The notes below the pieces were generated by a model. It saw only the letters and a list, made by a program, of their open reading frames with translations, was not told where the DNA came from and made no database searches. From Alphaproteobacteria bacterium (GTDB lineage Bacteria > Pseudomonadota > Alphaproteobacteria > UBA6615): DNA of 35,900 bases. Made by a program: the position numbers and the translations under genes. The stretch lies in assembly GCA_028822385.1 (NCBI GenBank), contig JAPKDV010000009.1, positions 1 through 35,900 of the forward strand, written 5' to 3'. Of this stretch, positions 32 through 10,839 are shown piece after piece. The first letter of the stretch is position 1, and each line of letters begins with the position of its first letter.

Positions 32-751
32 ATGGCGACCTTCGTTCTTGTGCATGGTGCTTGGCATGGCGGCTGGTGCTGGTCACGCATCGCTCCGCAA
101 CTGCGGGCAGCAGGTCACATCGTTCAGACACCCACGATGACCGGTTTTGGTGAACGCAGCCACCTCCTTACATCCGATGTCGGGCTGGAAACTAATATCA
201 CGGACATTATGAATGTTCTGTTATGGGAGGATCTGAGCGACGTTATTCTTGTTGCCCAAAGCTATGCCGGAATGGTGACCACGAGCGTGGCGGACCGGAT
301 GCCCGAGCGGATAGCCGCCCTCGTCTATATCAACGCCTTCATTCCAGGTGATGGTATTTCCCAGAACGACATGCTTCCAAACTGGCGGCGTGAAATGATT
401 GAGGAAGAGACCTCCCAAGACCCCGATGCCTGGCGGATGCCTGCCCCTTCACCGGAACTGATCGGCGTCACAGACCCCGCAATCGCCGCGTGGATCACCG
501 AAAAGATGACCATACAGTCAGCCAAGACCATGCGCGACCACGCCACGATCACCGGTGCCATCGATAAGATCACAAATCGCACCTTTATTCGCGCTACTGG
601 ATATCGCAACAGCACTTTCGATGCGACCGTCAAAGAATATATGGCGCACCCGGACTGGCGTGGCATTGAACTCGACACGAGCCACGATGCGATGATCACA
701 GCCGCCGACGAGGTTCGAGCAATTTTCGAAGAGATCGCCGCCGATATTTGA
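32..751 (+). CDS. alpha/beta fold hydrolase (esterase-like)
   Basis: ORF starts MATFVLVHGAWHGGWCW with HGxWHG oxyanion region, nucleophile elbow-like AQSYAG, late SHDAM His; SD-like 'aaagtgag' region upstream. Confidence 0.9.
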   Translation: MATFVLVHGAWHGGWCWSRIAPQLRAAGHIVQTPTMTGFGERSHLLTSDVGLETNITDIMNVLLWEDLSDVILVAQSYAGMVTTSVADRMPERIAALVYINAFIPGDGISQNDMLPNWRREMIEEETSQDPDAWRMPAPSPELIGVTDPAIAAWITEKMTIQSAKTMRDHATITGAIDKITNRTFIRATGYRNSTFDATVKEYMAHPDWRGIELDTSHDAMITAADEVRAIFEEIAADI

Positions 752-769
752 GCTGCTTCCAAACGGAAA

Positions 770-791
770 GGGCCGCTCCGAAGAGCGGCCC
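770..791 (-). terminator. Rho-independent terminator on the minus strand
   Basis: Perfect 9-bp stem; minus strand reads GGGCCGCTC-TTCG-GAGCGGCCC followed by TTTCCGTTT (UUCG tetraloop). The T-tract is only on the minus-strand side. Confidence 0.8.
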
Positions 792-838
792 CGTGAGCAG
801 GCTACATGCCCAGCCCGTGGTCATTTCGACCATTGTCT

Positions 839-919
839 CTATTCGATTAGTGAAGGTTGCTCCGCCATCCGAACCCAAGACACTGGGTTGAACATGTTGC
901 CTAGAATCTCACTCGACAT
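839..919 (-). CDS. 26-aa small ORF, MSSEILGNMFNPVSWVRMAEQPSLIE
   Basis: ATG preceded by AAGGAGGTGATC-TA (perfect 12-nt anti-SD complement, 922-933); GGAGG is 7 nt from the ATG; UUCG terminator about 47 nt after the stop. Not in the supplied ORF track (too short). Confidence 0.65.
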   Translation of the reverse strand: MSSEILGNMFNPVSWVRMAEQPSLIE

Positions 920-1064
920 TAGATCACCTCCTTTTGATTGTTAAAAAACAAAAAAACCTAACTCCGGATTTCGAGTCCATTGCAAACAAATTCCAGTCCA
1001 ATAGAAGAAACTGTTAGCTCGCTATCATAGCGTTTTGTATAATAGGGAATTAAAAAGAATGAAG

Positions 1065-2285
1065 TTACTCTGCCGCAACCTTGCTGTAGCGCTCCGGAAT
1101 TTCGAGATCGAAGACGCGAGCTGCATTGTATCCGAGAATGTTGCGCTTGGCGTTTTCATCAAGGAACGGTAGGTCCCAAATCACTGATGGCAGATCAAAA
1201 TCCCAGTGCGGCCAATCTGACGCATAGAGCATTTGTGAATTTGCGCTGATCCCTTCCATAGTCGCGGCCAGTAGAGCTTCGTTGCTACGTTCCATCGGCT
1301 GGCTTGTGTAGAACATGTCACGCATATATTCGCTCGGCAGCTTTTTAAGCAGCGGCGCTTCAGAAGTCCTCATCATGTATTCGTGGTCAAGCCTCTGCAT
1401 CGCAAAGGATAGCCAGGCAATGCCACTTTCTATCCACATGACCTTGAGCTTGGGGAAGCGTTCCGGCAATCCGTTGATCACCCAGTTAGTCAGATGCACC
1501 AGATTGCACAGAACGAAAGAGATCGCGTGCATGGAAATGAAACGGTTTAGCTGAGAGGTGTACTCATCCTGCCAGTTCAAATGTGTGTGGAATCCAAGCA
1601 CCTGTCCGGCTTCTTCGAGCATGGCATAGAGCCGCATATATTCGTTCGAATGCACCGGCTTGTGGCGTGATGACGTAACGAGGAAACCTGCAACACCAGG
1701 CTTGCCTAGGAAACGTTTAACCGTCGCTTCCGCCGCTTCAGGATTGTTGAACGGGAGATAGAGCATCGCCCGGATCCGCGGGTCCTCAGGCAGGATTCGT
1801 TCCACGAGCCAACGATTATAGGCCGTCGCCAGATGGACTTCCATCTCCGGGACCGGATGCATACCCAAAAACAGGAGTGCGTTGGGGAAGACAACCTGAT
1901 AGTCGAGCCCCATCTGATCGATGGATTTTCGTACCAACACAACATCGCGAGGAACATCTGTGTCTTCAACCGGCTCCTTGAGCCCCTGCCCGTGAGGAAT
2001 ACGACCCCAGACATTCTGCCATTGCAGTCCCGGCGTATGATTCAGGAAAGCTCCGCGCTTCGATCCATCACCAAATGCGGACGCAGCATCTCGAATGACT
2101 GGATCCTCGACTAGGTCCATGATCTCCGGCCAGGCGCCGCCGTCACTGATATGTGAATCGATATCGACAATGAACACATCGTCGAAATTGCGCTGGTTGG
2201 CCTGCTTACGCGCATTAGCGAGCAACTCGCGGCTATCAGACCAATCATCAATCTGCGAATAAGTCCGCTTGTAATCTTCACTCAT
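1065..2285 (-). CDS. amidohydrolase family protein (amidohydrolase_2-like TIM barrel)
   Basis: 406 aa; DIDSHIS near the N-terminus, GFHTHLNW, WIESGIAWL, LYASDWPHWDFD motifs typical of ACMSD-like amidohydrolases. Confidence 0.9.
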   Translation of the reverse strand: MSEDYKRTYSQIDDWSDSRELLANARKQANQRNFDDVFIVDIDSHISDGGAWPEIMDLVEDPVIRDAASAFGDGSKRGAFLNHTPGLQWQNVWGRIPHGQGLKEPVEDTDVPRDVVLVRKSIDQMGLDYQVVFPNALLFLGMHPVPEMEVHLATAYNRWLVERILPEDPRIRAMLYLPFNNPEAAEATVKRFLGKPGVAGFLVTSSRHKPVHSNEYMRLYAMLEEAGQVLGFHTHLNWQDEYTSQLNRFISMHAISFVLCNLVHLTNWVINGLPERFPKLKVMWIESGIAWLSFAMQRLDHEYMMRTSEAPLLKKLPSEYMRDMFYTSQPMERSNEALLAATMEGISANSQMLYASDWPHWDFDLPSVIWDLPFLDENAKRNILGYNAARVFDLEIPERYSKVAAE

Positions 2286-2309
2286 TGCATGAAATTCCTT
2301 CTCTCTTCA

Positions 2310-2597
2310 CTACGCCCGGTTCGTCCACATGGCCAAGTCGAACAGGTTGAGATCTGCTGTCTGCAAAAGGGCAGTTACCGTCACAGCGACATCCGTCGCA
2401 TTCATGGTTCCGGGTTCACATACGGGCGAAAATTGCCGTCCTTCGGTATCGACCTTCCTCGCATAGAGACGAGCACCAGCTGTCAGCAGAGCCTGAACCG
2501 TCTCATCCGAAATGTTGGCCGTGTCGTCGGACTCAAGTCGACGCAAAGACTCAAAAAGAGCACCTTCGGCTAGTTCAGCAAGATCAGGTGCGGACAT
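2310..2597 (-). CDS. small uncharacterised protein (~95 aa) between Rieske and amidohydrolase genes
   Basis: ORF starting MSAPDLAELAEG; its ATG overlaps the 3' end of the upstream Rieske gene (translational-coupling arrangement). The track start at 2609 is an upstream GTG. Confidence 0.65.
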   Translation of the reverse strand: MSAPDLAELAEGALFESLRRLESDDTANISDETVQALLTAGARLYARKVDTEGRQFSPVCEPGTMNATDVAVTVTALLQTADLNLFDLAMWTNRA

Positions 2598-3057
2598 AAA
2601 TATCCTCACCGCGCACCACCACTTCGTACTGTGTCAGCCGCGTATTGGCTTCACCGGGATGCACGCCGGTTCGAATGTTAAACTCGAAACCATGCCAAGG
2701 GCAGATGATATGAACATCAGCTTCCACAAATTCGAAGCCATGGCTTTTCTTACCATCGTCAAGAACTTCATTGACCCGGTTCATGACCTTACCCTGACAG
2801 ACGGGCCCGCCCATGTGGGGGCAATTATTCTCCCAGGCGAAGAAATCATCCCCGAGGCGAAATACGCCGATCTCCAGATCGCCTTCCACAACGACGCAGC
2901 GATCCCTATCCGCAATATCGCCTGCTTTCGCAACAAATAACTCTACCACGCCCACTCCCCTTGGAAACATTTGTGCTGTTGGTAACGCACTAGGAATATC
3001 AGCAGGAAAATAGCGATGCAGATGCCCCTGCGCAAGATTTCTAACCTGGTGATCCAA
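2584..3057 (-). CDS. Rieske 2Fe-2S ferredoxin-like protein
   Basis: CPHMGGPVC...CPWHGFEFNIRTG Rieske cluster motifs; true start may be internal (e.g. MFPRGVGVVELF). Confidence 0.85.
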   Translation of the reverse strand: MDHQVRNLAQGHLHRYFPADIPSALPTAQMFPRGVGVVELFVAKAGDIADRDRCVVVEGDLEIGVFRLGDDFFAWENNCPHMGGPVCQGKVMNRVNEVLDDGKKSHGFEFVEADVHIICPWHGFEFNIRTGVHPGEANTRLTQYEVVVRGEDIYVRT

Positions 3058-3112
3058 AGAAACCTAGTTTCCGTATCTATGGTCACAACAAACCAACATC
3101 ATGGAGTTTTTA

Positions 3113-3613
3113 ATGCCGTCAATCAAAAAGTTAGCTTCAGCCCTACTAGTTACTGGCGCACTGGCCCTGTCCTCAACTGCGGCCATTTCCGGTGGCCATA
3201 ATAGCAAAGACATTGTTGAAACCGCTGTAGCAAACGAACAGTTCTCCACTCTCGTCGCAGCCGTCACAGCCGCCGGCCTGGTCGACACTCTCAAGAGTGA
3301 TGGCCCGTTTACCGTATTCGCACCAACCAACGAAGCCTTTGCGAAACTTCCCGCTGGCACAGTTGAAAATCTGCTCAAGCCGGAGAACAAGGATAAACTT
3401 ATTGCCGTGCTCACCTATCACGTGGTCCCGGGCAAGGTGATGTCTTCGGATATCGCTGGCAAGGAACTGAGCGTCAAAACCGTCCAGGGGACCATGGTGG
3501 ATATTGATGCCACTAAGGGCGTCACGATTGATGGTGCCATGGTGACCAGTGCCGATATCGAGACCTCGAACGGAGTCATCCACGTCATCGATACGGTAAT
3601 CCTTCCAAACTAG
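3113..3613 (+). CDS. fasciclin (FAS1) domain secreted protein
   Basis: Signal-peptide-like N-terminus ([24 protein letters not shown]), then [35 protein letters not shown]. Confidence 0.93.
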
Positions 3614-3651
3614 CCCGACCTTGAGGTCTTTTCCGCGTAGTCCCATACTTG

Positions 3652-3687
3652 CGCCGGGCGAACACACCGCTCGCCCGGCGTTTTTCT
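3652..3687 (+). terminator. Rho-independent terminator of the FAS1 gene
   Basis: CGCCGGGCGA - ACACACCGC - TCGCCCGGCG followed by TTTTTCTT. Confidence 0.9.
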
Positions 3688-3708
3688 TCCCGAGCTGAGA
3701 ACAGAAAC

Positions 3709-3891
3709 ATGACAACTGACAAAGAAATTGAAACTGGATTTATCGGCCCCGCCACTTGCCCAACTTGTACCTCAAAAACCGACTTCTGGCTGCAGTCCAA
3801 TGGTCGAGCCATGTGCCCGTGTTCAGCACGTCGCGCGTTCGATCCATCCGAACTGGATTTGGCGTCGAGCCCGAGCAGCGCTGGAAACTGA
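3709..3891 (+). CDS. small zinc-ribbon-like protein (60 aa)
   Basis: MTTDKEIETGFIGPATCPTCTSKTDFWLQSNGRAMCPCSARR...; CxxC and CxC Cys pairs; lies between the FAS1 terminator and the SDR gene. The track start at 3649 lies within the 5' edge of the terminator. Confidence 0.45.
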   Translation: MTTDKEIETGFIGPATCPTCTSKTDFWLQSNGRAMCPCSARRAFDPSELDLASSPSSAGN

Positions 3892-3913
3892 GCACAACCA
3901 AAGTGTTAGGCCG

Positions 3914-4657
3914 ATGAGTATTTTAAAACCTTTCGGAACAGAGCTCTCCGTAGCTGTATTTGGTGCTGGAGGAGGAATCGGCGGAGCCTTGGTGGATGTC
4001 CTGCAATCAGAAACATCGGTCGAGCGGATTTACGCTCTCTCACACAACGAGCTTGAGGGTCTGGGAAAGAAATCAACCGGTATAGAATTTGACATGCTTG
4101 ATGAGGCTTCAATAGTAAAGGCAGCGGCGGTCATTTCCAAAGACGGTCCACTCCACCTTGCAATCGTCGCCACAGGTTTTCTTCATAACAACACTGTTGG
4201 CCCTGAGAAACGCATGAAGGACCTAGGAGGTGACAATATGGAACACCTCTTTCGTATCAACACCGTAGGACCAGCGATTATCGCCAAACATATTTTGCCG
4301 TTGTTCGCCAAGGATCGCCAATCTCTGTTTGCAGCACTGTCTGCCCGGGTTGGTAGCATTTCAGATAACAAGCTTGGCGGATGGCACAGTTACCGTGCTT
4401 CGAAAGCTGCGCTTAACATGGTAATTCGAACACTCTCGATCGAGATGGCCTATCGCAACCCACGTTCCATCTGTGTAGCCCTTCACCCAGGAACCGTCGA
4501 CACTCAACTGTCAGGACCCTTTCAGGGTAATCTTTCGTTCCAAAAAGTCTTCACACCCGATCATTCCGCGACACGACTGCTAGAAGTTGTGGCAGGTCTC
4601 ACACCGAAAAGCACAGGTGGCTTCTTTGCCTGGGATGGACAACAAATCCCTTACTAA
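3914..4657 (+). CDS. SDR family NAD(P)-dependent oxidoreductase
   Basis: VFGAGGGIGGAL nucleotide-binding motif, YRASKAALN catalytic motif; the track start at 3728 is a frame extension through the preceding ORF. Confidence 0.9.
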   Translation: MSILKPFGTELSVAVFGAGGGIGGALVDVLQSETSVERIYALSHNELEGLGKKSTGIEFDMLDEASIVKAAAVISKDGPLHLAIVATGFLHNNTVGPEKRMKDLGGDNMEHLFRINTVGPAIIAKHILPLFAKDRQSLFAALSARVGSISDNKLGGWHSYRASKAALNMVIRTLSIEMAYRNPRSICVALHPGTVDTQLSGPFQGNLSFQKVFTPDHSATRLLEVVAGLTPKSTGGFFAWDGQQIPY

Positions 4658-4679
4658 AATTGCGAAATACGAAAAGGAC

Positions 4680-5105
4680 ATGGATATGGTCGTCAAATAC
4701 CTCGCCGTTTATCTAGCAGCGCTTGTAACATTTCTGATCATTGATGCCGTATGGCTGGGCTTGGTCGCACGGTCATTTTATGTGCAGCAGTTAGGCGATC
4801 TGCTCCGTCCCGAGCCCAATTTCGGCGTCGCGGGCCTATTCTACATTCTTTATGTCATCGGTGTGGTCGTGTTCGCCGTGTTGCCTGCCGCAGAACAACA
4901 ATCTTGGGTAACCGCTATGTTGCTTGGTGCCCTGTTCGGCTTCATCGCCTATGGGACATACGACCTTACTAATCTCGCCACTCTCGCGAACTGGCCCGTC
5001 CTAGTCTCTGTCGTCGATATGATCTGGGGTTCTGTGCTGACAGCCTTCGTTGCCTTGGCCGGGTACAGCGCGGCACGCGTCATGTTCGCGGGCCCCACGC
5101 CCTAG
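4680..5105 (+). CDS. DUF2177-family membrane protein
   Basis: MVVKYLAVYLAALVTFLIIDAVWLGLVARSFY...AYGTYDLTNLATL; four hydrophobic segments. Confidence 0.85.
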   Translation: MDMVVKYLAVYLAALVTFLIIDAVWLGLVARSFYVQQLGDLLRPEPNFGVAGLFYILYVIGVVVFAVLPAAEQQSWVTAMLLGALFGFIAYGTYDLTNLATLANWPVLVSVVDMIWGSVLTAFVALAGYSAARVMFAGPTP

Positions 5106-5125
5106 TGTCATGCCACAAACAAAAA

Positions 5126-5145
5126 GGGCGGCTAATTTGCCGCCC
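5126..5145. terminator. Bidirectional terminator between convergent genes
   Basis: GGGCGGC-TAATTT-GCCGCCC; minus strand followed by TTTTTGTTTG. Confidence 0.8.
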
Positions 5146-5153
5146 TAATCTGT

Positions 5154-6038
5154 TTACAGATTGTACTGGTAGGAATGCGGTATCCAAGAATAACCGTCGC
5201 CATGAGTGTCGATATATCCCACTGACGGAAACGGCATGTGGAAGCCAATCGCCGGCATCTTCGCATCTGCGACCTGCGCCAAAATACGCTTGCGCGAAAT
5301 GATAGCCGTATCGGGATCATCATCCATTCCAAATTTCCATTCCGGGTGGGCAGTCGAGACAGCAAAATGCGCAACCGTATCGGACATAATCATCAGCTCA
5401 TTGCTACCGCTCTGCACGTGATAGGCCATGTGCCCTGCTGAATGACCAAACGCGTCAACTGCGGTCACACCAGAGACGATCTCGTCGCCCGGCTTCACGA
5501 AGCGAGCCTGTTCGGCTAGAGGTTCACAGATCTTGCGGAACATTTCCAAGGTCGGCGGACGATGGGTAGGAATGTTCTCCCCCTTCTTCCAAAAATCGAA
5601 CTCAACCTCGCCGAAAACAATCTCTGCATTCGGAAAGGTCAGGCCGTCACCATTGGTCAGGTTGGCGATGTGATCGGGGTGACAATGGGTGATCACGACA
5701 ATATCGACATCCGAACGGTCATAACCAGCATCGGCAAGCCGTGCATTGTAGTGACCGGCATTTGGCTGGGGTGACTTGTCGCCAAACCCCGGATCAAACG
5801 CGATCAGCTTTTCGCCGGTATCAACAAGCGTCGGCACAAACTGGTGTTCAAAATTTGGAAACGGAATGCGGTTTGCTGTGGCGACGGCCTCAACTTCGGC
5901 CGCACTTGCATTGGTCCCCGTGACAGGGTGCAAATCATCACGAAGCACAAAACCTTCGAGAATGTTGGTCACGACGAAGTCGCCGTGATTGAACTGATAG
6001 ACGGTTGGGCGCGTCATGCTGGGTTTGTTGGCAACCAC
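5154..6038 (-). CDS. MBL-fold metallo-hydrolase
   Basis: THCHPDHIANL (HxHxDH), FGHSAGHMAYH, IMSDTVAH; GTG start at 6038 supported by GGAGG with 7-nt spacing. Confidence 0.9.
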   Translation of the reverse strand: MVANKPSMTRPTVYQFNHGDFVVTNILEGFVLRDDLHPVTGTNASAAEVEAVATANRIPFPNFEHQFVPTLVDTGEKLIAFDPGFGDKSPQPNAGHYNARLADAGYDRSDVDIVVITHCHPDHIANLTNGDGLTFPNAEIVFGEVEFDFWKKGENIPTHRPPTLEMFRKICEPLAEQARFVKPGDEIVSGVTAVDAFGHSAGHMAYHVQSGSNELMIMSDTVAHFAVSTAHPEWKFGMDDDPDTAIISRKRILAQVADAKMPAIGFHMPFPSVGYIDTHGDGYSWIPHSYQYNL

Positions 6039-6189
6039 GTTTGTTCCTCCTGCTTAAATTTAGATCGGCTATATAGCACGTTCGGAACGTACCAAAACCA
6101 CCACACTGTCTATAAATCCATGCGGACGGCCGATTGACAATCACGCGTCTGGATTGAAACCTGTTCCCTATGCAAAAAGGAACGACGTC

Positions 6190-7059
6190 ATGACTGCACA
6201 AACTTCACCGGAAACTCGCTCTTTTGGGACCTCCCTGGGCGCGGAGATACGCGGTGTCGACCTTTCAAGGGCCCAGCCGCCAGCAGTGCTCAAGCAAATT
6301 CATGCTGCATGGCTGGACAATCTGGTTCTGGTTTTTCGAAATCAGTCCCTGAGCGACGACGATCTGGTGAATTTTAGCCGTCAATTTGGTGATCTGGATA
6401 TGGTCCCGGGCTGGGAGCCCTTCTCCCCGGAGGGACATCCCGAAGTTCTCGTTGTCTCTAACGTTCAGGAAGACGGTACTGCGATTGGTGTTCTAGGTGA
6501 TGGCGAAGCGTCGTGGCACACGGATATGGCTTATATCCCCCAACCACCCCCGGCGAGCCTGCTCTACAGTCTGGAAGTGCCAGAAATCGGTGGTGACACC
6601 AGTTTTATGAACATGTACGCGGCCCTCGACACTCTGCCGGACGATCTCCGACAAGCCATCAACGGCAAAATCCTCAACCACGACTCAAGCCATGATAGCG
6701 GCGGTAACCTGCGGCCTAACCACACCATGTTCGGCAGCCTTGCCGAAGCGCCGGGCGCGCGCCACCCCATCATCCGTACACATCCGGAAACCGGGAAATC
6801 TGCCCTCTTCCTTGGTCGCCGTCTCCACGCCTGGATCGTCGGTGAGGGCGTCACTAAAAGTGACGAACTTCTCGACCGGCTCTGGGAACACTGCACAAGT
6901 GGAGATCTGACCTACCGGCACCGTTGGCAAAAAAGCGATCTTCTGATGTGGGACAACCGGGTAACCATGCACCGACGTGAACATTTTGATTCTAGCAGAC
7001 GACGCGTAATGCACCGTACCCAGCTTAAGGGTAATCAGGGCGTTGAAGCGGCCAGATAG
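6190..7059 (+). CDS. TauD/TfdA family Fe(II)/2-oxoglutarate-dependent dioxygenase
   Basis: WHTDMAY (HxD), PxIRTHPETGKSALFLG, LLMWDNRVTMHRR. Confidence 0.93.
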   Translation: MTAQTSPETRSFGTSLGAEIRGVDLSRAQPPAVLKQIHAAWLDNLVLVFRNQSLSDDDLVNFSRQFGDLDMVPGWEPFSPEGHPEVLVVSNVQEDGTAIGVLGDGEASWHTDMAYIPQPPPASLLYSLEVPEIGGDTSFMNMYAALDTLPDDLRQAINGKILNHDSSHDSGGNLRPNHTMFGSLAEAPGARHPIIRTHPETGKSALFLGRRLHAWIVGEGVTKSDELLDRLWEHCTSGDLTYRHRWQKSDLLMWDNRVTMHRREHFDSSRRRVMHRTQLKGNQGVEAAR

Positions 7060-7124
7060 TTTTAGTCCTGTTGCAGGTTGCGGCAATCAAGCACGGCATT
7101 CACGAAAAATGGTTCTCCGGACCG

Positions 7125-7979
7125 CTAGGACGCGGCACCTCGTCGGAGAATGAAGATGTAGATAAACGCCGTGGCGAACATGATCAGGCTGTAGGTGGCA
7201 GCAGGCACCACTGCTAGACCACCATCAAACAACAGTGTTGCGACAGCGATAGCCAGCGTCCCGTTCTGCATTCCACACTCAATTGAAATCGTGACGCGCT
7301 GCCGCACACCTGATGCAAAGATGCGCGCGATCACGTAGGCCAGCACCATCATCAACACATTCAGCACCAGCATAATCAACCCAGCCTGGGTGAAGTAGGT
7401 GACGATGTTTGCCCGTTCCTGAAAAATCGCACCTGCAAGAACTAGAATAAATAAGCCGGCTGAAATTTGCCGCGCCATCGACTCGATCCTGATGGCCGTA
7501 TTTTCAGCGAAGTGACGCACGGCAAGACCGATCAGGACGGGTACGGTCACAATGACAAACACGCTGATCGCCGTACTGGTCACGGACACATTACCGGCAT
7601 CACCGCCCACAAATTGGACATAAGAGAACACAACAACTGCAGGAATTGTGATGACACTGACCAAGCTGATGACGGCGGTCAGCGAGATCGACAACGCCAC
7701 GTCCCCACGTGCAAAGGCTGTCAGAATATTTGAGGTCACGCCCCCGGGTGCCGCTGCAATGATCATGACGCCAAGTGCTAGTTCGGGCGGCAACTCCCAA
7801 ACCATCAAAAGCAGATACGCAACAACCGGTAAAAGAACGATCTGCGCGAGAGCTCCAACAACGAAGTCTTTTGGTTGGCGTATAACCCGCGCAAAATCAT
7901 CGAACGTCAGACCCAAGCCCAGCACAAACATAATAAAGGCTAGCGCCAGAGGTAAGATAATATCGGTTATAATGCCCAT
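7125..7979 (-). CDS. bile acid:sodium symporter (BASS) family transporter
   Basis: MFVLGLGLTFDDF, AAPGGVTSNILTAFARGDVALSISLT, IECGMQNGTLAIAVA. Confidence 0.92.
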   Translation of the reverse strand: MGIITDIILPLALAFIMFVLGLGLTFDDFARVIRQPKDFVVGALAQIVLLPVVAYLLLMVWELPPELALGVMIIAAAPGGVTSNILTAFARGDVALSISLTAVISLVSVITIPAVVVFSYVQFVGGDAGNVSVTSTAISVFVIVTVPVLIGLAVRHFAENTAIRIESMARQISAGLFILVLAGAIFQERANIVTYFTQAGLIMLVLNVLMMVLAYVIARIFASGVRQRVTISIECGMQNGTLAIAVATLLFDGGLAVVPAATYSLIMFATAFIYIFILRRGAAS

Positions 7980-8123
7980 GGTTTCCCCAAAAAAATTTCG
8001 TAGAATTTAACAGACTTTATGAGACGCATCGCGTGGTTGAAAGGGGGCAGTGTCATTGCGTAAATCTTATAAAAGAATTAGACACGAGCAGCAGATAAAA
8101 CAATTTGAGAGACACCCTTAATT

Positions 8124-9479
8124 ATGACCAATTCTGATCACGTAAATCTTGAGCAATTCATGGAGGGCGTGCAGCGCCGAAACCCAGGTGAGATCGAATT
8201 CCATCAGGCAGTTTACGAGGTGGCTGTCGATATCTTCGACTTCATCAAAGACAAAGAAATTTACCAAGAGCAACAGATTTTGCGCCGCATGGCTGAACCC
8301 GACAGGGTAATCTCTTTTCGTGTGTGCTGGGAGGACGACAACGGCAATGTCCGTGTCCAGCGCGGCTACCGAGTTCAAAACAATAATGCTATCGGCCCAT
8401 ATAAAGGTGGCCTACGGTTTCACAAGTCCGTTAACCAAAGCATTCTAAAGTTTCTCGCCTTCGAGCAGACTTTTAAGAATAGCCTGACAGGCCTCCCCAT
8501 GGGTGGTGGCAAGGGCGGCTCAGACTTTAACCCGAAAGGCAAGTCTGACAATGAAGTGATGCGGTTTTGCCAATCCTTCATGACGGAACTTTATCGCCAC
8601 GTTGGCGAAGATATAGATATTCCAGCCGGTGATATCGGCGTCGGTGGCCGTGAGATCGGCTATATGTTTGGTCAGTACAAGCGCATCACCAACAAATATG
8701 TTGGTGTCTTGACGGGCAAGGGGCTTGAGTACGGCGGTAGCCTCGTGCGTACCGAAGCGACTGGTTACGGCGCTGTATACTTTATGGAAGACATGCTTTC
8801 AGAAGCCAAAGACGGTTTCGACGGTAAAACAGTTCTGGTTTCAGGATCGGGTAACGTCGCAACCCATGCGGCAGAAAAGGCCACTGAACTAGGAGCCAAG
8901 GTCGTGACTCTCTCGGATTCCGGTGGCTTTATCCACGATCCAGACGGCTTTACGCAAGAGAAGATCGACTGGATCAAGGAGCATAAGAACATTCGACGTG
9001 GCCGTATCTCCGACTATGTGAAGGAGTTCAAGGGCGCGGAATTCCATGAGGGCCAAAGGCCCTGGGCAGTACCCTGCGATATCGCCTTACCCTGTGCGAC
9101 ACAAAATGAGATCAGCAAGGAAGAAGCCGAAATGCTGGTCAAGAACGGCGTCAAGGCCGTAGCAGAAGGCGCAAATATGCCTACCGTAAACGAAGGCGTA
9201 GAGGTCTTCCGCGACGCGAAGGTTTTGTTTGGGCCGGCTAAGGCTGCAAATGCCGGTGGCGTAGCTGTATCAGGTCTCGAGATGAGCCAGAACAGCGGCC
9301 GAATTTCTTGGAGCGCGGACGAACTCAATAAATTACTGCGCGACATAATGCGAGACATTCATGGCAACTGCCTTGAATACGCTAGAGATGGCGACGGTTA
9401 TGTCGACTACGCCAAGGGTGCGAACATCGCCGGCTTCAAAAAAGTCGCAGATGCCATGTTGGCGTTTGGCGTCGTCTGA
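8124..9479 (+). CDS. gdhA: NADP-specific glutamate dehydrogenase
   Basis: GPYKGGLRFH, GLPMGGGKGGSDFNPKGKSD, PAGDIGVGGREIGYMFGQYKR. Confidence 0.97.
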   Translation: MTNSDHVNLEQFMEGVQRRNPGEIEFHQAVYEVAVDIFDFIKDKEIYQEQQILRRMAEPDRVISFRVCWEDDNGNVRVQRGYRVQNNNAIGPYKGGLRFHKSVNQSILKFLAFEQTFKNSLTGLPMGGGKGGSDFNPKGKSDNEVMRFCQSFMTELYRHVGEDIDIPAGDIGVGGREIGYMFGQYKRITNKYVGVLTGKGLEYGGSLVRTEATGYGAVYFMEDMLSEAKDGFDGKTVLVSGSGNVATHAAEKATELGAKVVTLSDSGGFIHDPDGFTQEKIDWIKEHKNIRRGRISDYVKEFKGAEFHEGQRPWAVPCDIALPCATQNEISKEEAEMLVKNGVKAVAEGANMPTVNEGVEVFRDAKVLFGPAKAANAGGVAVSGLEMSQNSGRISWSADELNKLLRDIMRDIHGNCLEYARDGDGYVDYAKGANIAGFKKVADAMLAFGVV

Positions 9480-9500
9480 CCCGGTCAGCAACGACAATCC

Positions 9501-9535
9501 AAAAGTCCGGTCCACTTGGCCGGACTTTTTTATTT
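9501..9535 (+). terminator. Rho-independent terminator of gdhA
   Basis: AAAAGTCCGG...CCGGACTTTTTTATTTT. Confidence 0.9.
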
Positions 9536-9542
9536 TAAACGT

Positions 9543-9863
9543 CTAGATCGGCGGCACCCGCTGCAGGAACGGCTCAATAATTACTGTTTCGAAAATGCCA
9601 CCAAGTGTGTAGGGGTCGTTGGAATGCATGGCTACTGCCGCTGCGCGATCGGGAACATCGAGCACCAGAACATTGCCAGTTACCTTCCGGATACCCTCTT
9701 CGCCATAGATAAAATTCTCTACGTCAGTACCATCCTCAACCAGTCCGCCACCGAAGGTGATTAAAGGCATAAAGGCCTGCTGATATTCAGCATGTGCTGC
9801 GAGCAACTCGGCGCGCTTGTCGCCCATTCCGAGCTTGTCACGTCTGGCGATAACAAAAAGCAT
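9543..9863 (-). CDS. YciI family protein
   Basis: YCII-like ferredoxin fold sequence (RAELLAAHAEYQ...AAVAMHSNDPYTLGGIFETVIIEPF); RBS AGGAGG upstream. Confidence 0.85.
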   Translation of the reverse strand: MLFVIARRDKLGMGDKRAELLAAHAEYQQAFMPLITFGGGLVEDGTDVENFIYGEEGIRKVTGNVLVLDVPDRAAAVAMHSNDPYTLGGIFETVIIEPFLQRVPPI

Positions 9864-9873
9864 TCTGATCCTC

Positions 9874-10839
9874 CTAAGCTAGCGCAACGGTGTTGCTAAG
9901 TTTTCCAATACCTTCGATATCAACCTCAATCACGTCGCCCGGCTTCATGAAGACCGGAGGCTTGCGTCCTGCGCCAACTCCGGACGGGGATCCTGTGGTG
10001 ACAATATCGCCCGGACTGAATCGGTAGAATTTCGAAAAGTAGCTAACCATCTGGGGAATGTTAAATATCAGATCATCCGTGCGCGTCGACTGCACCACAT
10101 TGCCGTTCAGGGTGGTGGTTAATTGCAGCATGTGCGGATCTGGGATCTCGTCCTTGGTAACGATAACCGGGCCGCAGGGGCAGAAAGTCGGAAGCTGCTT
10201 ACCGAGCAGGTTCCGGTCCCAGGCGGACACGACCTCAAACTGTTCGCTCGCCCCGAAGAAAGCGCCAACCCAATCGCGCGCTGAGACATCGTTGGCAATC
10301 GTGTAACCGGCGACATAATCCATTGCCTCCTCTTCCGATACATTGTGGCAGTCTTTTCCAAAGACGAAAGTCAGCTCTCCCTCCCAGTCGATCATGTCCG
10401 GGCACTGAGGCGGCACAATGATCGGACGACGGTGACCGTTCAGCGCCGGATGGGTCATCAGAAACGCTGGCGGGTATTTCGGAATGGGAATGCTCACCAT
10501 CTCTTCCAGATGGGCTCGGTAGTTCATGCCGACTGAAAGAATAATAGATGGGTCAGGCACCACAGGCAGAAAACTGGCGTCATCCCAAGCCTGAAGAACG
10601 CCCGAACCATAGAGCACTTCCCGTTCATCTGCTGACATCGCAGCAACACCGTCGATACAGGATTGCACCGCAGCCAAAGCCGCATCACCGCCACCCATCA
10701 GATCTCGCATACGCGCCGGAACTTTTTTTGCTACAGACATAACCGCACGCAGTGCTGTCAGGTCGAGCAGTTCGTTGTCTAAGGTGAGTACCGCAACATG
10801 AGATTCTTTTTTCGCACTTTCGATCGTCGCTAGTTTCAT
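9874..10839 (-). CDS. fumarylacetoacetate hydrolase (FAH) family protein
   Basis: VGMNYRAHLEEM, DWEGELTFVFGKDC, GYTIANDVSARDW, GDIVTTGSPSGVGAGRKPP. Confidence 0.94.
   Translation of the reverse strand: MKLATIESAKKESHVAVLTLDNELLDLTALRAVMSVAKKVPARMRDLMGGGDAALAAVQSCIDGVAAMSADEREVLYGSGVLQAWDDASFLPVVPDPSIILSVGMNYRAHLEEMVSIPIPKYPPAFLMTHPALNGHRRPIIVPPQCPDMIDWEGELTFVFGKDCHNVSEEEAMDYVAGYTIANDVSARDWVGAFFGASEQFEVVSAWDRNLLGKQLPTFCPCGPVIVTKDEIPDPHMLQLTTTLNGNVVQSTRTDDLIFNIPQMVSYFSKFYRFSPGDIVTTGSPSGVGAGRKPPVFMKPGDVIEVDIEGIGKLSNTVALA

Follow-up and report, generated by a model that had tools for sequence, protein, structure and literature searches.

A divergent, evidently translated variant of the CC2171 small RNA family with class-wide spread in Alphaproteobacteria

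The window analysed here, a stretch of 35,900 nucleotides from an Alphaproteobacteria bacterium (assembly GCA_028822385.1, contig JAPKDV010000009.1), carries near its start, on the minus strand, an ORF of 26 codons behind a Shine-Dalgarno (SD) sequence that is a perfect complement of the 16S rRNA 3' tail. The initial annotation regarded it as a minimal translated unit in "empty" sequence and proposed a RiPP-like precursor, a small regulatory protein or an enzyme subunit as the product. The locus raises the question of whether such a unit is kept for its peptide, for its RNA or for the act of translation itself.

Layout of the locus

Read from the sequence, positions 950 to 760 of the minus strand form a stand-alone transcription unit of ~180 nt with a promoter-like site, SD, ATG, 26 codons and a TTCG terminator (Table 1), and the SD, the start codon, the ORF ending at 839 and the terminator named in the initial annotation were all found in place. 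The sequence AAGGAGGTGATC at 933-922 (minus strand) becomes, with A934 added, a block of 13 contiguous nt complementary to the 16S tail GAUCACCUCCUUU, and T921 (minus strand) offers one more G-U pair beyond this block. The GGAGG core (931-927, minus strand) ends 7 nt ahead of the ATG at 919-917, and the ORF at 919-842 (minus strand) encodes MSSEILGNMFNPVSWVRMAEQPSLIE and closes with TAG at 841-839. A terminator-like hairpin was present in 196 of 200 homologues, with a score of 34 versus 18 on the reversed sequence.

The promoter scan gave no sigma-70 match for the putative promoter, which is weak by consensus, and alignment showed that its GTTAGG box is common to the genus relatives. In the window 23 nt separate GTTAGG from AAGGAGG; in the homologues, -10-like boxes peak at a separation of 20-25 nt (124 of 199). 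Since the spacing fits this peak, transcription probably starts at ~950, as an independent unit separate from the amidohydrolase operon. The amidohydrolase ORF (2285-1065, minus strand) lies upstream on the same strand, as the initial annotation had placed it, and an alpha/beta hydrolase gene (32-751, plus strand) lies downstream in convergent orientation.

Table 1. Features read or predicted at the micro-ORF locus (positions in the window)
Feature	Positions	Strand	Description and basis
Putative promoter	957-986	minus	-35-like TTTGCA 986-981, 18-nt spacer, -10-like GTTAGG 962-957; read from sequence
Shine-Dalgarno AAAGGAGGTGATC	922-934	minus	13-nt perfect complement of 16S rRNA 3' tail; invariant in relatives
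Micro-ORF, 26 codons	839-919	minus	ATG 919-917 to TAG 841-839; start-codon and ORF-length statistics
Helix P1, 5' strand	891-912	minus	GUGAG 912-908, UAGGC 903-899, ACAUG 897-893; ORF codons 3-10; duplex/permutation test, consensus structure, single-sequence fold
Helix P1, 3' strand GGCAUGUAGCCUGCUCACG	792-810	minus	Directly ahead of terminator; duplex/permutation test and consensus structure
Hairpin P2	839-874	minus	3' half of ORF; apex GGAG-CAAC-CUUC ("EQP" codons); alignment fold columns 69-102, compensatory changes
Intrinsic terminator	769-792	minus	GGGGCCGCTC-TTCG-GAGCGGCCCT, then T-containing tail TTTCCGTTT
RF01867 (CC2171) full-length match	769-943	minus	29.3 bits, E 1e-4, model positions 1-159 of 159

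Distribution across Alphaproteobacteria

Homologues were sought by DNA patterns. The ORF was found in 5 of 6 genomes of the genus at 83-100% identity, and homologues with other peptides were found across the family. The exact pattern AAGGAGGTGATCNNRTGTC occurred in 75 of 387 class-level genomes and its reversed form in 0, while the pattern with at most one mismatch occurred in 78 of 291 genomes, almost always as one copy per genome, again with 0 matches for the reversed control. Sites with at most one mismatch from CRAAAGGAGGTGATC numbered 1-3 per genome in the bacterium's own genome and genus, and 1 in genome G000. The named scan gave at least 118 stretches; among the matches listed, almost all were from Alphaproteobacteria, with Rhodobacteraceae, Sphingomonadaceae, Erythrobacteraceae, Bradyrhizobium, Mesorhizobium, Methylobacterium, Acetobacteraceae, Caulobacterales and others represented. 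Seven stretches that proved to be ordinary genes (L090, L094, L125, L142, L168, L175 and L195) and one unassigned non-alphaproteobacterial stretch (L139, Alteromonas) were taken out of the set. The plasmid collection that was searched gave no match.

The initial annotation had considered the combination of elements hard to explain by chance, and the 75 of 387 genomes against 0 for the reversed pattern agree with this. A chance coincidence of SD, ATG, ORF and terminator has in its favour the shortness of the ORF only; it is already refuted by the class-wide conservation against 0 control matches, and its probability is practically nil.

Relation to Rfam family RF01867

A permissive Rfam search matched the window RNA to the full length of RF01867 (CC2171, a Caulobacter sRNA), and a search of the window at the gathering cut-off gave no match. 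The loci of 9 relatives scored 31-39 bits, also over the full length. The gathering score was exceeded by copies from Methylobacterium, Bosea, Roseiarcus and Falsiroseomonas, and the sampled Rhodobacteraceae, sphingomonad and Bradyrhizobium members gave no match to RF01867 at this score. In the window and its relatives the match was collinear and included the leader/SD block (CAACAAUCGAAAGGAGGUGAUCC..UGUC, identical in CC2171 and the window), the helix that closes the post-start segment onto the pre-terminator segment, and the terminator, and the RNA was identified with RF01867 because these parts are held in common. As its score lies below the curated gathering cut-off of 75 bits, the window RNA is, judged by sequence homology, a divergent full-length homologue of RF01867 rather than a curated member. 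The description of the unit as minimal and presumably translated was retained; the description of its surroundings as "empty" was not, because the transcript is, over its entire length, a homologue of an sRNA family already described.

The present group differs from the family as filed in two respects. Rfam classes CC2171 as an sRNA, yet an ORF starting with RTG is conserved throughout, and the group reaches Rhodobacteraceae, sphingomonads and Bradyrhizobium. A Mesorhizobium transcript of RF01867 has been listed with RNA-seq coordinates (PMC5596092). In C. crescentus, two earlier-predicted ncRNAs are reported as translated by Ribo-seq, and only 24.6% of genes are reported to carry a Shine-Dalgarno sequence (PMC4117421). 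In S. meliloti, Ribo-seq is reported to have revealed 54 new translated sORFs, of which a third lie on annotated sRNAs (PMC10117765).

One genome (G035) carried two copies of different types, L237 and L264 (MSHCH..., 24 codons; MSHGSA..., 18 codons), which suggests a paralogous relation between the 18-codon type of sphingomonads and the CC2171-like type.

Conservation of start codon, frame and length

When the pattern was ended at GATC and no start codon was demanded, all 47 distinct matches (47/47) had ATG, GTG or TTG exactly 2 nt after it, followed by an open frame; three of these starts were TTG. Stops before codon 13 were found in 0 of 200 curated copies in frame 0, whereas 46% and 50% of copies had one in the two alternative frames (+1 and +2), the set having been curated by leaving out copies with ORFs of more than 40 codons, most of which were unrelated genes. 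ORF length was constant within lineages, which were delimited solely by the N-terminus: Rhodobacteraceae had 18 codons in 22 of 22 copies, sphingomonads 18 codons in 26 of 27, and Bradyrhizobium 14 codons in 7 of 7. The stop triplet interchanged among TAA, TAG and TGA while the length stayed fixed. A column-shuffle test for stop avoidance was not counted as evidence, since sorting the copies by ORF length already builds the outcome into the comparison.

The ~20 one-mismatch matches never altered the GGAGG core. Eight of them changed GGUGAUC to GGUGGUC with retention of a G-U pair to the 16S rRNA, and start function was spared, the change of A or G to T at that position yielding TTG. Homologues lacking the ATG, the frame or the SD, named in the initial annotation as evidence against the unit, were looked for, and the unit held in every homologue seen.

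On three lines (unselected starts, no early stops and lineage-fixed length), the micro-ORF is evidently translated, and it shows the conserved start codon and reading frame of a dual-function sRNA or small mRNA. Within a known sRNA family, the locus represents a new, divergent and evidently translated variant that is spread across the class; an Rfam family filed as non-coding would be recast as translated and extended to groups in which it was unrecognised.

These results bear on the view that the RNA is a non-coding 30S decoy or anti-SD sponge, which occupies the 16S tail or base-pairs elsewhere while its translation is incidental. Such a role would agree with the maximal complementarity to 16S rRNA (13-14 nt), the conserved RNA fold and the Rfam class of sRNA, but start codon, frame and stop, all dispensable for a pure decoy, are conserved in every lineage. 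We consider it unlikely.

Two sets of variants were observed. The TTG-start homologues L227, L228 and L229 were typical otherwise and had EQP-type C-termini. L230, L231 and L232 had the same leader and SD with a different post-start sequence (GTGAACTAC/CAC..., VNYTITTPAISAVAATRIV), so the rule that TC follows the start codon, otherwise nearly universal, has exceptions.

Constraint on the peptide

Close-pair pN/pS was 0.75 in Rhodobacteraceae (0.58 for codons 2-10), 1.43 in sphingomonads, 0.74 in the lineage of the window (MSS) and 0.89 in a Rhizobiales subset. Because these ORFs are very short and partly constrained by RNA structure, the range of 0.74-1.43 may still be compatible with weak peptide constraint. 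The peptides of different lineages were unrelated, and searches of Pfam and NCBIfam with the 26-mer gave no family. In peptides of the window type only EQP recurs as a motif; its coding sequence, GGAGCAACCU, is the tip of a conserved hairpin, and the same segment recurs in another reading frame (RSSL in L023 and L091).

A functional small peptide, in which the 26-aa product itself acts as regulatory peptide, RiPP precursor or small subunit, would account for the invariant start, the conserved frame, the lineage-fixed length, a residue 2 that is nearly always Ser, the C-terminal EQP-like motif of MSS-type peptides and the longer versions in a few lineages with a secretion-signal-like N-terminus. 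Against it stand the pN/pS values, which do not show the purifying selection expected of a dual-function sRNA product, the absence of a Pfam or NCBIfam family, of an assigned function and of a conserved partner gene, the unrelated peptides of the lineages and the hairpin origin of the EQP-coding segment, which is seen in other frames too. This explanation is rather unlikely, and the peptide, which appears unconstrained, is probably not the product that matters. The product proposed in the initial annotation was consequently not upheld, given complete divergence of the peptide, pN/pS near 1, neighbours that are not conserved and no RiPP-type enzyme among those scanned.

In L057, L180, L269 and L274 the same SD/start block opens an ORF of 56-59 codons, with a secretion-signal-like N-terminus and then a polar tail (e.g. 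MSHGAKPVIAVLFGISALLTAGVASACPSHTTH...); these versions look as though the micro-ORF was lengthened into a small exported protein.

Genomic neighbourhood

At ~200 loci the flanking genes were randomly oriented, the downstream orientation was about half and half, and no neighbour gene was shared across lineages; for these reasons the unit was taken as a stand-alone gene rather than a leader. Control of a gene downstream by a leader peptide or attenuator would fit the short ORF followed by an intrinsic terminator, yet it calls for a co-oriented regulated gene downstream, and the gene in the window is convergent and none is common across lineages. A cis-leader role was rejected by this context analysis as largely refuted and is very improbable.

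The neighbours scanned (hydrolase, amidohydrolase, Rieske, metallo-beta-lactamase, SBF transporter, GDH, FAA hydrolase and glyoxalase) included no RiPP-type maturation enzyme. The region 1065-10839 of the window looks catabolic, with an amidohydrolase, a Rieske protein, a metallo-beta-lactamase fold protein, an SBF-type transporter, a Glu/Leu dehydrogenase and an FAA hydrolase, and is apparently unrelated to the micro-gene.

RNA structure of the coding region

The coding region doubles as conserved RNA structure, which the initial annotation had missed. In helix P1, codons 2-11 pair with the segment immediately ahead of the terminator. Pairing with the own partner reached -18.1 kcal/mol versus -12.65 kcal/mol for permuted partners (z -24.7 in the permutation test, inflated by related sequences) and was better than between-lineage swaps in 90%; the probability of P1 was 0.33 versus 0.10 with shuffled bodies. 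The window transcript folded much more stably than its shuffles (z -5.7), and in a family alignment of 13 sequences 18 of the 55 consensus pairs had compensatory changes; P1 covaries between lineages. In the alignment fold, the outer pairs of hairpin P2 extend to the stop codon. The predicted pairing of the SD with the body in the lineage of the window was 0.08 versus 0.33 in shuffles, that is, less paired and exposed.

Proposed mode of action

The conserved event is probably the translation of the RNA rather than its peptide, because start, frame and approximate length are kept while the peptide drifts. That the peptide has a role of its own is less probable than that the RNA acts through being translated. 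The explanation we favour, with moderate confidence, is a CC2171-type structured stand-alone sRNA that carries a translated micro-ORF and in which ribosome loading is the functional event; it is tempered by lineage-specific SD exposure and by the weak promoter consensus. Ribosome loading and passage that alter the fold or occupy ribosomes would give the best account, since the SD is perfect, the ORF structured, the frame and stop selected and the peptide unselected.

The short 5' leader (CAAUC-AAAGGAGGUGAUC) would offer the entire 16S tail a perfect partner and set the AUG in the P site. Codons 3-10 would form the long-range helix P1 with the pre-terminator segment, with the remaining ORF folded into P2. 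The 30S subunit would dock on the exposed SD, translation of ~26 codons would open P1 and P2, both of which could refold once the ribosome terminates near codon 26, so the RNA would have a ribosome-open and a ribosome-free fold. Ribosome loading could then act as a sensor of free ribosomes, a sink for them or a gate controlled by them. Transcription and translation in the source organism, ribosome gating and any downstream effect are what we infer from these features, and the Ribo-seq and RNA-seq reports on C. crescentus, S. meliloti and Mesorhizobium lend the mechanism indirect support. More tentatively, the group may be a class-wide bacterial RNA conserved for being translated: a micro-mRNA with a perfect SD that is gated by ribosomes or titrates them, under selection for start, frame and stop position and not for the peptide. 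A maximal SD kept class-wide with a drifting peptide could offer a clean natural case in which to ask whether translation is selected independently of its product.

Dual-function sRNAs and sRNA-encoded small proteins (Pos19 of Rhodobacter, rnTrpL/peTrpL of Sinorhizobium) resemble the window RNA in being small transcripts that have a terminator of their own and carry a short ORF that is translated. They differ in having an assigned peptide or base-pairing activity, whereas the peptide of the window RNA is not conserved, and rnTrpL is moreover leaderless and derived from an attenuator. Attenuator leader peptides are alike in a micro-ORF whose translation rather than product matters, in a structured RNA and in a terminator, but the window RNA is stand-alone, without a downstream regulated gene.

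Lineage differences at the Shine-Dalgarno sequence

In Rhodobacteraceae, Bradyrhizobium and the MSN group the predicted folds sequester the SD. Because the SD is exposed in the lineage of the window, the ribosome loading site may, on these predicted folds, be regulated differently in different groups. An internal anti-SD mimic as a general SD-sequestering device fits Rhodobacteraceae, Bradyrhizobium and MSN and was ruled out for the lineage of the window, where pairing of the SD falls below the level of shuffles; GAGCAACCU, considered as such a mimic, is better explained as the hairpin tip. Near copies of the 16S tail (ACCUCC, UCACCUC, GAUCACCU) were observed in Rhodobacteraceae, Bradyrhizobium and MSN-type RNAs (e.g. 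L093, L133 and L027), and 16S-tail words of at least 7 nt were present in 55% of the Rhodobacteraceae, 100% of the Bradyrhizobium and 37% of the MSN copies, versus ~5% in shuffles.
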